Source of the DNA: Gemmatimonadota bacterium
Lineage (GTDB): Bacteria; Gemmatimonadota; Gemmatimonadetes; Longimicrobiales; Gaopeijiaceae
Length of the DNA: 64,000 bases
NCBI GenBank assembly: GCA_027623325.1
Contig: JAQBXY010000006.1
Coordinates: 62,001-126,000 of the forward strand
Reading direction: 5' to 3'
The position numbers were made by a program, and so were the translations under genes. The notes under the pieces are model-generated. The model was not told the DNA's origin, did not search any database, and saw only the letters and a program-made list of their open reading frames with translations. Below, piece by piece: positions 7,794-13,917 of the stretch (position 1 is its first letter; each line of letters begins with the position of its first letter).

Positions 7794-9929
7794 CTAATAC
7801 GCGGCCAGCTCGACGATCGCATCGACGACATCGGGGGTCTGCGGCAGAATCACGTTCTCGATCTGGGGCGCGTAGGCCACCCAGGTGTCCATTGAAGCAA
7901 CTCGCTTTACTGGACCGTCGAGGTACTCGAAGAGTTCGTCCGCGATGCGTGCCGCGATCTCCGAGCCGATGCCCCAGGACAGGCTGTCCTCGTGCACGAT
8001 GACCACCTTGTTCGTCTTCTTCACCGAGGTGGCGATGCGATCCATGTCGAAGGGCTGGACGGTCCGTAGGTCGATGACTTCGGTTTCGATCCCATGTTGC
8101 TCGGAGACGATCTTCGCAGCATCGAGGCTCCGCTTCACCAGCGCACCGCACGTGACGAGTGTCACGTCCGAACCCTCGCGGCACACCTTGGCCTTTCCGA
8201 AGGGGATCATGTACTCGGGACCGGGATCGCGGCCCTTGTTGTACACCTGCCGATAGAGGTGCTTGTGCTCGAGGAAGATCACAGGATCGTCGCACCGGAT
8301 CGCGGTACGGAGCAGCCCCGCGGCATCCTCCGCCGTCGCCGGCATGCACACCCGCAGCCCCGGTGTGTGCGTGAAGAGCGTTTCACCGGTCTGAGAGTGA
8401 TAGATGCCACCACCCTTGAGATATCCACCGTACGTGACTCGCACGACCGCGGGAGAGGAAAAATGGCCGTTCGATCGATAGCGCATCGTCGCCATTTCGT
8501 TCCGGATCTGCATCATGGCTGGCCAGATGTAGTCGAAGAACTGGATCTCCACGACCGGCTTCAAGCCCCTTGTGGCCATTCCCACCGCACGTCCCGCGAT
8601 GTTGGCCTCCGCGAGCGGTGAATTGTAGACCCGGTCCGAGCCAAAGCGCTGCTGCAGGCCTTGTGTGACCTTGAAGACGCCCCCTTTTCCTTTCACTTCG
8701 GCGAGAATGTCTTCGCGCGACGCGTCGGCTACGTCCTCTCCGAACACCACGATTCGTGGATCACGCTCCATCTCGCTGCTCAGGCAGGAGTTGAGCAAGT
8801 CGACCATGGTCAGGAGCTTGTCGTCCGCGTACTGCGGTGCGTCTTCGGTGTCGAACTCTGACGAGGTAGGATCGACGTCGGCCGAGTAGAGGTGGTGCAT
8901 CGCCGTGGAAGGGTCGGGCTGTGGCGATGCCAGCGCCTGGTCCCCCGCCTCCGCTACGCTCTTCTCTACTTCGCTCTCCAGCGAGTCCAAGTCGTCGGCC
9001 GTCGCTACCCCCAACTCGATCAACAATGCTCGGGCGAGTACCAGCGGATCCCGTGCGTCCTGAGCATCTCGCTCGGCCGACGTGCGATACGCCCGCTCGT
9101 CGTCCGACATCGAGTGCGAGTACGGACGGGTCGTGTGCGCGTGCAGCATGGCCGGCCCATGTCGATTCCGGGCGTAGGAGATGGCTTCGCCCGCGGCCCG
9201 ATAGCTGTCTACGAGGTCGGTCCCATCACAATGCACGATGTGCAGGTGAGGGAACGAAGACGCGAGGCGTGAGATACTGCCACCCGCGGTCTGTACCTCG
9301 ATGGGAACGCTGATCGCATACCCGTTGTCCTGTACCACGTAGACGACCGGCAGACGGAGGTTGCACGCGGTGTTGAGCGACTCCCAGAACTCGCCCTCGG
9401 ATGTCGCCCCATCTCCGGTACAGACGATGACGACCTCGTCGTCTTGGAAGTTGGTGATCCGGTCGCGCAGGCCCTCGACGTTGGGGACTTTGGTCCCGGC
9501 TTCCGCTGCCCCGACGGCCTGAAGGAACTGCGTGCCCGTGGGAGATGAGGAGGTCGGGATGTTGAACCGCACATCCCCGAAGTGGGCCGGCATCTGACGG
9601 CCCCCGGAGGCCGGGTCAGCCTCGGCGCCGACCGCTTGAAGGAGATGATCGAGCGGCGTTTGTCCGAGCGCCAGCATCATCGCCCGGTCCCGATAATACG
9701 GATAGAACCAATCGTGGGCCGACGTACAATGTTCGGCCACCGCGACGCCGATCGCCTCGTGTCCTGCACCGGATATCTGAAAGAAGACCTTGTTCTGGCG
9801 CTTGAGGCTCATCTCGCGATCGTCGATGCGGCGCGAGGTCACCATGGTGCGGTAAAACCTCAGGAGTTGTTCGTGCGTCAAGCCGGCCAGATCCGTGGAA
9901 TCCACGATCTCCTTCGCTTGCGTCGCCAT
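7794..9929 (-). CDS. Fused alpha/beta E1 component of a 2-oxo acid (branched-chain type) dehydrogenase
   Basis: 711 aa combining both E1 subunits. Residues 1 to about 350 are the alpha part, with substrate/TPP features [13 protein letters not shown] and the TPP-Mg motif [15 protein letters not shown] followed by [13 protein letters not shown]. Residues about 365-711 are the beta part ([42 protein letters not shown]). The enzyme decarboxylates a 2-oxo acid with thiamine diphosphate and passes the acyl group to a lipoyl E2; similarity to the 2-oxoisovalerate type is best, but pyruvate cannot be excluded. Such single-chain E1 proteins are known in Bacteroidota and Gemmatimonadota. E2 and E3 are not in the window. 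Transcribed alone on the minus strand. Confidence 0.9.
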
Positions 9930-10841: not shown

Positions 10842-11510
10842 GTGGATCTTCTCAACCCCCTTGTCGACCTCCTGCCGGTCTATGGTCCAGGGTTTCTCTT
10901 CGTTCTGGCCATCCTCGAGACTTGTTTCGTAACTGGGCTGGCTGTTCCCTCCGGAGTGATGACTTCGGCCGCCACGGTGTTGGCGCTCGAAGGGCGTCTC
11001 GAGCTACCGGCGGTCGTGGCTGCGGCAGCCGCGGGTGGTTTCCTGGGCGACAGCCTGGGATTCTGGATCGGGCGGGCATGGGGTCGACACGTCATGCTGG
11101 GTGGAGGCAGGTGGGCCAGGATTCTCGGAGCCCGTCAGGGGAAGGTCGATGAGCTGTTTGGGAGACATCCTTTCTACTCAGTCACTTTCGCCCGGCTGAT
11201 CTCGTTCGTACGAACCGTCATGCCGATCTCGGCCGGCATGAGTGGACTGAGCTACCGTCGTTATCTCCTGTACGAGGTGCCCGGACTCGGGATGTGGGTC
11301 GCGATCTATGTCTCGATCGGCATCCTTGCGAACGAGAGTTGGGGGCTTGCGACCCAATTGCTGGGCGTGGGCGGGACGCTGGCGTTCGCGGCGGCGACGG
11401 TCGTCGTGTGGACCGCTCTGCGACGGAGCGGCACCTCTCGTCGAACACGGCGGACCCGACCCTCCGACGGGCCTACGGAATCAGCGGAAGTTTCCAGCGG
11501 AGCACCCTAG
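10842..11510 (+). CDS. DedA family membrane protein (SNARE-associated/VTT domain)
   Basis: 222 aa from GTG 10842. The VTT-type signature is visible: ILETCFVTGLAVPSG near residues 25-40, GGFLGDSLGFWIGRAWG, the long GRHPFYSVTFARLISFVRTVMP stretch with its conserved arginines, AGMSGLSYRRYLLYEVPG, and terminal helices. DedA proteins are inner-membrane proteins now linked to lipid (undecaprenyl phosphate or phospholipid) translocation and membrane-potential maintenance. The stop directly abuts the CoaE start. The C-terminal tail is basic and serine/threonine-rich. Confidence 0.88.
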   Translation: MDLLNPLVDLLPVYGPGFLFVLAILETCFVTGLAVPSGVMTSAATVLALEGRLELPAVVAAAAAGGFLGDSLGFWIGRAWGRHVMLGGGRWARILGARQGKVDELFGRHPFYSVTFARLISFVRTVMPISAGMSGLSYRRYLLYEVPGLGMWVAIYVSIGILANESWGLATQLLGVGGTLAFAAATVVVWTALRRSGTSRRTRRTRPSDGPTESAEVSSGAP

Positions 11511-12770
11511 GTGTTGAGCGTTGCGCTCACCGGGAACGTGGCCGCCGGGAAATCCGCTGTGGCCGCCCGTTGGGCCGAAGTCGGAGTACCAGTCATCAGC
11601 GCGGATCAGCTCGCGCGGGAGGCGGTCGTTCCGGGGAGCACGGGCCTCAGGGCCGTCACGGAGGCGTTCGGACCGGATGTGCTCGCGGTCGACGGATCCC
11701 TCGATCGAGGCCGCTTGCGCGACGTAGTGTTCAACGATCCGACGGCGCGACAGCGCCTAGAGGACATCCTGCACCCCATGATCTGGCAACTGCGGGATCG
11801 CTGGCTAAACGAGCGCCGCGCCGAAGGTGCGTCGCTCGTCGTCTCGGAGATCCCGCTCCTGTTCGAGACGGGTCGCACGGCGGACTTCGACGCCGTGGTG
11901 CTCATCGACGCGCCCGTCTCCCTTCGCCGGGCCAGGCTCGTATCGGACCGTGGCATCGGCGGCGAGGAGGCCGATCGTATGATCGCCGCGCAGCTGGACC
12001 CAGAGGCGAAACGGTCGGCCTCGGACTTCGTCGTCGACAACGACGGCAGTCGCGAAGATTTGATCGAAGAGGCGGACGCGGTCCTCGCTGTACTCCGCGA
12101 GCGAGCAGGGCAGTCTACGATGAGAATCGACATGCATCTCCACACGGCCGGTTCGTGGGACTGCCTGTCCGACCCAGAGTTCGTCCTCGCCGCAGCGATG
12201 GAGCGGGGGTACGGACGCATCGCCATCACCGATCACAACCGACTCGAAGTCGCGCTTCGTATGGCGGAGGCCCATCCCGATCGAATCATTCCGGGGGAGG
12301 AGGTGAAGACCGCCGAAGGGATCGATGTGATCGGACTCTATCTGACGGCGGAGATCCCCAAGGGCACCCCGGCCGAGGAGACCATCGGTCAGATCAGGGC
12401 TCAGGGTGGCATCCCCTATTTGCCCCACCCTTTTGCCGGGGGGAAGGGTGGGGGTGGCAAGTACGCGGAAACGCTTGGTCCGTTGTGTGATGTGATCGAG
12501 GTCTTCAACGCACGGCTGCATTCGGTGAACGCCAATCGGAGAGCACAGGAGCTTGCCGCGCGACTCGGCAAGCTTGGTGGTGCGGGCTCGGACGCCCACA
12601 CGATCGGAGAGGTTGGGAACGCCTTCGTCGACCTTCCGCCCCACCCGAATCGACCCGAGGCGTTGAGGGCTGCCCTGCGGACCGCACGTGTGGGAGGCAG
12701 CGAAGCTTCGAGGGCGGTCCACCTGGCGTCCACGTGGGCGAAGCTGAGGAAGCGGCTTCCGGGTGGCTAA
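11511..12770 (+). CDS. coaE: Dephospho-CoA kinase fused to a PHP-domain phosphoesterase
   Basis: 419 aa, about twice the size of CoaE. Residues 1-200 are dephospho-CoA kinase: P-loop ALTGNVAAGKS, ISADQLAREAVVPG, and SEIPLLFETG. It would catalyse the final ATP-dependent step of CoA synthesis. Residues 204-419 are a PHP domain with metal ligands in IDMHLHTAG, AITDHNRLE, GEEVKTAEG, YLPHPF and AGSDAHT, resembling PHP phosphoesterases of the TrpH/PolX type. There is no stop between the parts. An in-frame ATG at 12120 lies exactly at the junction, so separate translation of the PHP part is possible, though its upstream AGCAGGGCAG is only a modest ribosome-binding site. The upstream DedA gene abuts and the DHH gene overlaps. 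Confidence 0.87.
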   Translation: MLSVALTGNVAAGKSAVAARWAEVGVPVISADQLAREAVVPGSTGLRAVTEAFGPDVLAVDGSLDRGRLRDVVFNDPTARQRLEDILHPMIWQLRDRWLNERRAEGASLVVSEIPLLFETGRTADFDAVVLIDAPVSLRRARLVSDRGIGGEEADRMIAAQLDPEAKRSASDFVVDNDGSREDLIEEADAVLAVLRERAGQSTMRIDMHLHTAGSWDCLSDPEFVLAAAMERGYGRIAITDHNRLEVALRMAEAHPDRIIPGEEVKTAEGIDVIGLYLTAEIPKGTPAEETIGQIRAQGGIPYLPHPFAGGKGGGGKYAETLGPLCDVIEVFNARLHSVNANRRAQELAARLGKLGGAGSDAHTIGEVGNAFVDLPPHPNRPEALRAALRTARVGGSEASRAVHLASTWAKLRKRLPGG

Positions 12771-13917
12771 GGAGTCTGGGGAACCAAGGTCGGTAGCGGG
12801 CCGACCCCTGACCGCGGTAGCTTTGCCGTACCGGTCGACACCGAGCGACCGGACTCCACGCCTCCAGGGTCAGGAACGTTTCTTGAGCTATCGAACGCCT
12901 TCGCACCGTGCGGCGGCGGTCAACGAAACCCGGAATGCACTTCTGGCATCCCGGTGCGCGATTCTGACCACCCACCTGAACGCCGACGGCGATGGCGCCG
13001 GCTCCCAAGCGGCGATCGCTTCGTGGCTCCGCGCCAACGGGACCGAAGCCTGGATCATCAATCCGACCGCCTTTCCGGACGGCTTGCGCTTCCTCGTCGA
13101 GAGGAATGAGTGGATCGTCCCGGTGGGCTCCAGGCGAGCGCGCGAGCTGTGTGAGACCGCCGATCTGGCGGTGGTGCTCGATACCGGCGAGGTGCCGCGC
13201 ATCGGACGGGTGCATGAGATGATTCGCGATGTGTCCACCGTGGTCATCGATCACCACCCGGTCGGCGACCACGCCATCGGCGGAGTCTCGCTGCGAGACA
13301 CGACCGCCTGTGCCACTGGCGAGCTCGTCTACGATGTGATTCTGGCGGCGAACGGCCCTTGGACGGACCAAGTGGCCCAGGGCATCTATGTCGGGATCCT
13401 CACCGACACCGGTGGCTTTCGGTTCGAGAACGCGACGGCTGGCTGCCACCGCGTCGTCGCAGAGGTCATCGAGCGCGGGGTCGAACCGGAGGCGATGCAC
13501 GAGCGGATCTACGGTTCGTCGCCCCTGCGCCGGTACCAGGTGCTTCGCTTCGCGCTCGAATCGCTCGAGCACGATTCCGACTCCGGTGTGTCGTGGATGG
13601 TGATTCCCCGGGAGCGGTACGAGGAGTTCGGCGCGACGGCGGAAGACCTTGAGGGCATCGTCGACATTCCGCGTTCGATTTCCGGCACCGAAGTCGGCCT
13701 TCTGTTCCGGAGCACCACGGGCGGTGATGTGAAGATCTCCTTTCGCTCCAATGGGCTGGTCGACGTCAACGCGCTTGCCCGTCGGTTCAACGGAGGTGGG
13801 CACGTGAAGGCATCGGGGGCAATGGTCCCCGGGCCGATGGAACGGGCGATGGGCGAAGTGCTGGAGGCGACCCGGGCCGCAGTGGCCAAAGTAAGAGTCA
13901 AGGGAGCCGGTCGTTGA
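12763..13917 (+). CDS. nrnA: DHH/DHHA1 phosphoesterase, NrnA-like (oligoribonuclease/pAp phosphatase)
   Basis: The product has DHH-family motifs: THLNADGDGAGSQ (motif I), VVLDTGEVPRIG (II), VIDHHPVGDH (III, the DHH core), GILTDTGGFRFENAT (IV), and a DHHA1 end with NGGGHVKASGA. NrnA-type enzymes degrade short RNA oligonucleotides and dephosphorylate 3'-phosphoadenosine 5'-phosphate using manganese. The track start (GTG 12763, overlapping the CoaE-PHP stop) adds about 40 residues that look unconserved. A TTG at 12883 preceded by AGGAA six bases upstream gives the normal family length and may be the true start. It is followed by an overlapping TTGA start. Confidence 0.87.
   Translation: MAKESGEPRSVAGRPLTAVALPYRSTPSDRTPRLQGQERFLSYRTPSHRAAAVNETRNALLASRCAILTTHLNADGDGAGSQAAIASWLRANGTEAWIINPTAFPDGLRFLVERNEWIVPVGSRRARELCETADLAVVLDTGEVPRIGRVHEMIRDVSTVVIDHHPVGDHAIGGVSLRDTTACATGELVYDVILAANGPWTDQVAQGIYVGILTDTGGFRFENATAGCHRVVAEVIERGVEPEAMHERIYGSSPLRRYQVLRFALESLEHDSDSGVSWMVIPRERYEEFGATAEDLEGIVDIPRSISGTEVGLLFRSTTGGDVKISFRSNGLVDVNALARRFNGGGHVKASGAMVPGPMERAMGEVLEATRAAVAKVRVKGAGR

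Follow-up and report, generated by a model that had tools for sequence, protein, structure and literature searches.

The window, the whole stretch of 64,000 nucleotides analysed here, contains at 11511-12770 on the forward strand one open reading frame of 419 aa, with a GTG start, a TAA stop and no internal stop codon, in which a dephospho-CoA kinase (CoaE) domain is followed by a PHP metal-dependent phosphoesterase domain (Table 1). A gene for a membrane protein of the DedA/VTT type lies directly upstream and a gene for a DHH-DHHA1 phosphoesterase directly downstream. The initial annotation had described the frame as an in-frame fusion of CoaE to a PHP phosphoesterase and the next gene as another, NrnA-like phosphoesterase. 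Both descriptions were borne out, the first by the single ORF, the matches to both Pfam profiles and the presence of the fusion in 50 genomes, and the second by the presence of PF01368 and PF02272. CoaE-PHP is a new domain architecture assembled from known families, and it is real, conserved and recurrent. In the AlphaFold2 model of the full-length protein both domains are predicted with confidence (pLDDT 92), and since its pTM was 0.61, the placement of the CoaE and PHP domains relative to each other is not fixed by the model.

Table 1. Features of the coaE-php locus; positions are those of the window unless a locus is named.
Feature	Position	Strand	Residues	Evidence or remark
DedA/VTT-domain membrane protein	10842..11510	+		PF09335, E 3e-16; fused to CoaE-PHP in relatives
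CoaE (dephospho-CoA kinase) domain	11511..12119	+	1-203	PF01121, TIGR00152; linker of about 5 residues included
CoaE P-loop GNVAAGKS	11532..11555	+	8-15	kept in all full-length alignment rows
Equivalent of catalytic Asp32 of M. tuberculosis CoaE	11604..11606	+	Asp32	invariant in alignment
PHP metal-dependent phosphoesterase domain	12120..12770	+	204-419	PF13263, E 2e-13; fold; stop codon included
Inner ATG exactly at PHP start	12120..12122	+		possible relic of a separate php start; anti-SD -4.9 kcal/mol
HxH metal ligands	12135..12143	+	His209, His211	invariant, 42 sequences
Equivalent of RNase AM Asp20	12159..12161	+	Asp217	invariant; ligand role PMC9410882
TDH motif	12228..12236	+	His242	equivalent of RNase AM His45; Asp and His invariant
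Glu pair	12297..12302	+	Glu263-Glu264	Glu264 aligned to RNase AM Glu72; invariant; alignment to solved relative
Asp at place of metal-binding RNase AM His83	12324..12326	+	Asp272	invariant Asp, 42 sequences
PHP motif	12423..12431	+	His306	equivalent of His198; Pro and His invariant
SDAH motif	12588..12599	+	Asp361, His363	equivalents of Asp255 and His257; Ser, Asp and His invariant
NrnA-like DHH-DHHA1 phosphoesterase, next gene	12763..13917	+		PF01368, PF02272; 8-base overlap with php end in the present gene call
Three-domain DedA(VTT)-CoaE-PHP ORFs	L153:2765-4654, L146:2768-4633, L168:2750-4645

CoaE catalyses the last step of CoA synthesis, in which the 3'-phosphate of CoA is added, and the source genome contains only one match to it. 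In the window protein PF01121 covers residues 3-181 with 163 bits (cut-off 27, E 7.7e-48), and TIGR00152 is also above its cut-off (131.7 bits vs 65.55). Judged by the alignment, the active-site motifs of CoaE are intact in the fusion. In the DXD motif (11598-11606, residues 30-32) the first Asp is replaced by Ser30, a change found in 49 of the 59 rows from the window's family (f1), fused and split alike, and the first Asp is retained in families f2, f7 and f9 and in nearly all f3 rows. Since the protein retains the catalytic Asp and is the sole CoaE of the genome, its membership in the CoaE family is not in doubt despite Ser30. The DXD motif has been reported for almost all, not all, CoaE proteins (PMC2765170) and is thus not strictly defining. 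A 389-aa ORF of family f5 (L104) that looked like an extended CoaE was discarded, as it has no Pfam CoaE match and so represents a different frame.

With regard to the PHP half, PHP_C (PF13263) matches residues 341-393 with 50.1 bits (cut-off 21.3) and the N-terminal PHP model (PF02811) reaches 23.6 bits, slightly under its cut-off of 26.4; together, the PHP phosphoesterase matches span residues 204-396. When this part was modelled alone by AlphaFold2 (mean pLDDT 96), the best fold matches in the PDB were PHP proteins with a probability of 1.00 (2anu, 7ug9, 9etk and 2yb1), the closest being TM0559 of Thermotoga, followed by RNase AM, PsfC and CV1693. TM0559 of T. maritima (2anu) is similar in size and nearest in fold (TM about 0.69). 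However, it shares 18% identity with the window PHP, and it is an uncharacterised stand-alone protein that bears the name of a predicted phosphoesterase only. The best characterised relatives are CV1693 (2yb1) and RNase AM/YciV (7ug9, 9etk), which have the PHP fold and most of the metal ligands in common with the window PHP. In contrast to them, the window PHP does not have the insertion domain with its phosphate- and base-binding residues, and it presents an Asp for one ligand His.

We aligned 42 relatives, fused and split, and the HxH, Asp, TDH, Glu, PHP-motif His and SDxH ligands were invariant in both forms alike. The claim of the initial annotation that all PHP metal ligands are kept is thus right for the HxH, TDH, PHP and SDAH motifs but not for the equivalent of RNase AM His83, which is Asp272 in 42 of 42 sequences and could still bind metal in place of His. 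This alignment shows a predicted three-metal PHP site that is nearly complete, and the domain probably works like a three-metal phosphoesterase. No clear counterpart of RNase AM Arg201 is seen at the corresponding position, and Asn130 and Arg132 (PHP-part numbering) are invariant among the relatives.

The domain could not be placed in any of the characterised PHP groups that we tried. It scored 28.2 bits with the model of the 3',5'-nucleoside bisphosphate phosphatase CV1693 (NF041577, cut-off 400) and 18.9 bits with that of the RNase AM group/RNase RNM (cut-off 375), and the insertion domain of both groups is absent from this compact domain of 216 aa. The CehA/McbA metallohydrolase model (NF038032) matches residues 205-394 with an E of 2.9e-12, but its 46.7 bits are below the cut-off of 80. 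In RNase AM and CV1693 the 5'-phosphate and the base are bound by residues between the PHP core and the insertion domain (PMC9410882). Because these pocket residues are in, or at the edge of, a domain that is absent here, the known mode of the pAp phosphatases is not simply transferable. The neighbours of the PHP paralogues, considered as a clue to function, were mixed (cell-wall hydrolases, glycosyltransferases) and gave no clear message.

The junction between coaE and php was read in 97 loci, and each genome was counted once for the totals. Fifty genomes, which belong to 23 genera of one class of Gemmatimonadota (18 genera in f1, 4 in f7 and 1 in f9), have the two genes fused, and 36 genomes of 25 other genera have them split but adjacent, with php 3' of coaE in another frame. 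When split, the genes overlap or nearly touch. No genus presents both states. The initial annotation had considered that the domains might be separate genes in close relatives; this is so elsewhere in the family but not in the window's own genus, in which all the genomes with a readable locus are fused. It had also considered that an error of sequencing or assembly could have deleted a stop codon, an explanation to which the 60-contig assembly of the source genome lends something. However, the identical fusion is kept in 50 independently assembled genomes, the single-contig G017 and G155 among them, which excludes a lost stop codon, and we regard this explanation as refuted, with a practically negligible probability. 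The same conservation of the frame, together with the profile matches of both domains, rules out a chance open frame. Among the best 80 hits of a scan of the contig collection, nearly all were titled Gemmatimonadota, and a few carried other NCBI titles.

The coaE-php pair is an old neighbourhood in this class, which is found fused, split or without PHP. No close PHP was found in three f1 genera, the large g24 and the small g27 and g36, which keep coaE and mostly nrnA too, and nearly all genomes sampled from f4 and f5 are likewise without this PHP, again with coaE and mostly nrnA kept. These absences indicate that the cells can do without PHP, and pAp may already be dealt with by NrnA. In the three f1 genera php appears to have been lost from the middle of the operon, and in L105, from one of them, nrnA lies directly behind coaE.

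In a joint tree of both domains (85 rows; all trees come from 'quick' searches) 7 changes of the fused state are required, and branches with good support force at least 6 of these; each of the single-domain trees, CoaE or PHP, forces at least 4. A single fused clade, that is, a single origin with no later change, was rejected (p-AU 1.15e-39). Therefore, coaE and php have been joined or separated repeatedly, with at least 4-6 fusion or fission changes. The split state prevails throughout f2 and f3, in most of f9 and on the outer branches of f1, so that several fusions would seem more likely than one fusion with many losses.

The ATG noted in the initial annotation exactly at the junction is indeed there, at 12120-12122, and had been taken to leave open two separate products. 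Full-length CoaE-PHP would then be accompanied by a separate PHP made from this codon, and the precise position of the ATG and its retention in most relatives of the same genus fit that idea. However, its anti-SD duplex energy is weak, of a size that in-frame codons of the same ORF also reach by chance, several same-genus relatives (L003, L005, L017 and others) have a non-start codon instead, and there is no stop upstream, so the long chain would be made anyway. Furthermore, the best start near PHP has a median anti-SD energy of -5.75 kcal/mol in split loci vs -3.5 kcal/mol in fused ones (Mann-Whitney p = 0.005, which is optimistic because the rows are related), and in ten fused loci the stretch that runs from 15 codons ahead of the PHP start to 4 codons inside it contains no ATG, GTG or TTG. 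The inner php start has thus been weakened in fused lineages, and this weakening, together with the ten loci without a start codon, makes a single CoaE-PHP chain the likely product, with a second, separate PHP being very improbable.

As a control, fusion was also scored in the same loci for all neighbouring genes of the conserved operon. The coaE-php pair is fused in 53 of 82 loci, and none of the four downstream pairs ever is (php-nrnA 0/73, nrnA-hyp 0/71, hyp-fur 0/72 and fur-speB 0/55; 0/271 in total), nor are two upstream pairs (0/46 and 0/30), with the control genes likewise closely spaced. As the loci are related, the counts do not represent independent events; even so, the difference is large. 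The control bears on the possibility that the fusion is neutral, with co-transcribed neighbours joined by chance frame changes, domains that work independently and a PHP substrate that is not related to CoA. In agreement with neutrality, the split genes overlap or nearly touch, so that a small indel can join them, the linkers between CoaE and PHP vary in length and sequence among relatives, and PHP is missing in many of them. On the other hand, four other tight operon pairs never fuse, the fusion is found in 23 genera with several changes of state, and coaE and php stay together where the flanking genes differ, as in L098 (f3) and L101 (f7). We consider that a neutral fusion is rather unlikely, although it deserves some weight.

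The only other pair that fuses in this control is DedA-coaE (8 of 36 loci). In the window, the TAG of the DedA gene (11508-11510) abuts the coaE GTG (11511) in the same frame (11508-11513), so that a single stop lies between them. Reading of this TAG as an amino acid, to give a DedA-CoaE readthrough protein, was considered and no evidence for it was found, the coaE GTG having a start signal of -5.8, like the starts of its neighbours. A similar in-frame arrangement is present in G126 (L204), with the TAG one codon earlier. In a search of the whole family, DedA-CoaE-PHP was found as one ORF of 622-650 aa, with no stop, in seven genomes (G280, G016, G366, G367, G365, G152 and G340) from genera g4, g31 and g137 (loci L144, L146, L149, L153, L155, L165 and L168). 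Four of the seven were scanned with Pfam (L146, L153, L155 and L168), and VTT, CoaE, PHP and PHP_C were all above their cut-offs. In the three-domain chains about 8-14 residues lie between the end of the last predicted membrane helix and CoaE, and L153 and L168 have lost any start codon right at the N-terminus of CoaE. A DedA-CoaE fusion with php as its own gene is also found in L185:2712-3953 (f1) and L181:2436-3668 (f2), the VTT protein of the latter being of a different type. L185 has an ATG at CoaE with a strong start signal (-8.6), so a separate CoaE may also be made there.

Among the DedA proteins are flippases of undecaprenyl phosphate and putative flippases of phospholipids (PMC9876793, PMC10127716), and the VTT protein in front of CoaE in the window belongs to the same superfamily (PF09335). 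It could be that DedA, CoaE and PHP form one membrane-bound complex, in which the last step of CoA synthesis and a phosphoesterase would be joined to a transporter of a lipid carrier or phospholipid. This proposal comes from the seven genomes in which the three parts are one chain, with the last predicted helix leading into CoaE, and from the separate joining of DedA and CoaE in at least two further lineages; we advance it as speculative and unlikely. If it were true, the window protein would be the two-thirds-fused form. The DedA fusion may also connect the supply of CoA with the cell membrane.

The explanation that we regard as probable, with reserve, is a true single-chain CoaE-PHP that derives from long-adjacent operon genes, repeatedly joined or separated, and in which PHP would have a CoA-linked role. 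Both activities would serve one pathway and would gain from a fixed 1:1 ratio and from proximity. PHP would hydrolyse a phosphate ester on an adenine nucleotide arising from CoA metabolism, and the candidates are a 3'-phosphorylated nucleotide such as pAp, which would be released by AcpS using CoA, or CoA itself or a CoA fragment. This identity of the substrate is tentative, a possibility that we would not yet expect to be the right one. The broader suggestion of the initial annotation, turnover of a CoA-related or nucleotide by-product by the PHP domain, would be plausible. AcpS, which uses CoA and releases pAp, was found in the source genome, and APS kinase was looked for there and not found; pAp would thus come here mainly from the use of CoA, sulfate assimilation being an unlikely source. 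Nanoribonuclease and pAp-phosphatase activities are both known from the NrnA-like DHH family. In the literature, pAp is considered a by-product of CoA metabolism (PMC8268124). Points against this CoA-linked role are the missing pocket of the known pAp phosphatases, the many relatives that keep coaE without this PHP, and the unrelated genes beside the PHP paralogues.

A kinase and a phosphoesterase on one chain could also act as a bifunctional regulator, in which CoaE would make CoA and PHP would remove its 3'-phosphate, thereby setting the CoA/dephospho-CoA ratio like other fused opposing enzymes. In the model, the compact PHP without a lid-like insertion could admit such a large substrate. 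However, this cycle would burn ATP unless it were tightly regulated, and the Pfam scan revealed no regulatory domain, so we find this role improbable.

The statement of the initial annotation that CoaE is normally a single-domain protein does not always hold, as there are known counterexamples in the CoaE-UPF0157/GrpB proteins of mycobacteria and in the mammalian bifunctional CoA synthase. In the mammalian enzyme the kinase is joined to the preceding enzyme of the pathway. This protein (PDB 2f6r) is likewise a bifunctional chain that contains a dephospho-CoA kinase, whereas the partner of CoaE in the window is not an enzyme of CoA synthesis. CoaE-UPF0157 (GrpB-like) also has an N-terminal CoaE followed by a second domain, and it is the CoaE part that matches best (PMC2765170; PDB 6n39; NF002879). 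However, its second domain has a reported role in folding (PMC2765170), and that of the window protein is a metal-dependent phosphoesterase. NF002879 matches residues 1-191 only and below its cut-off, the C-terminus being PHP and not UPF0157. Among the papers searched, none was found that names dephospho-CoA kinase, PHP domain and fusion together, none on dephospho-CoA kinase and Gemmatimonadota, and none naming both DedA and dephospho-CoA kinase. The recurrent fusion to CoaE, with DedA added in some relatives, points to a physical or pathway link, hints at an uncharacterised CoA-related job of PHP, and gives a concrete starting point for assays of what a PHP subfamily with no assigned function acts upon.

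Finally, the NrnA-like protein is present in 238 of the 246 members of the class, and its gene adjoins the coaE-php locus in much of both f1 and f2 and, to some extent, also in f7 and f9. The ORF of the window matches NF053633 with an E of 2e-29, but its 102.6 bits are below the cut-off of 350. Its relatives align only from about residue 30-50 onward, and the true nrnA start is probably later than called; the apparent stops inside the nrnA matches of relatives were read as an extension upstream past the true start. A second DHH-DHHA1 protein is encoded directly upstream of coaE, overlapping the coaE start, in L101:6656-7849 (f7) and L100:5776-6849 (f9). Elsewhere in the window, the ORF at 7794-9929 on the reverse strand (711 aa) appears by eye to join both parts of a 2-oxoacid dehydrogenase E1, alpha and beta, in one chain.
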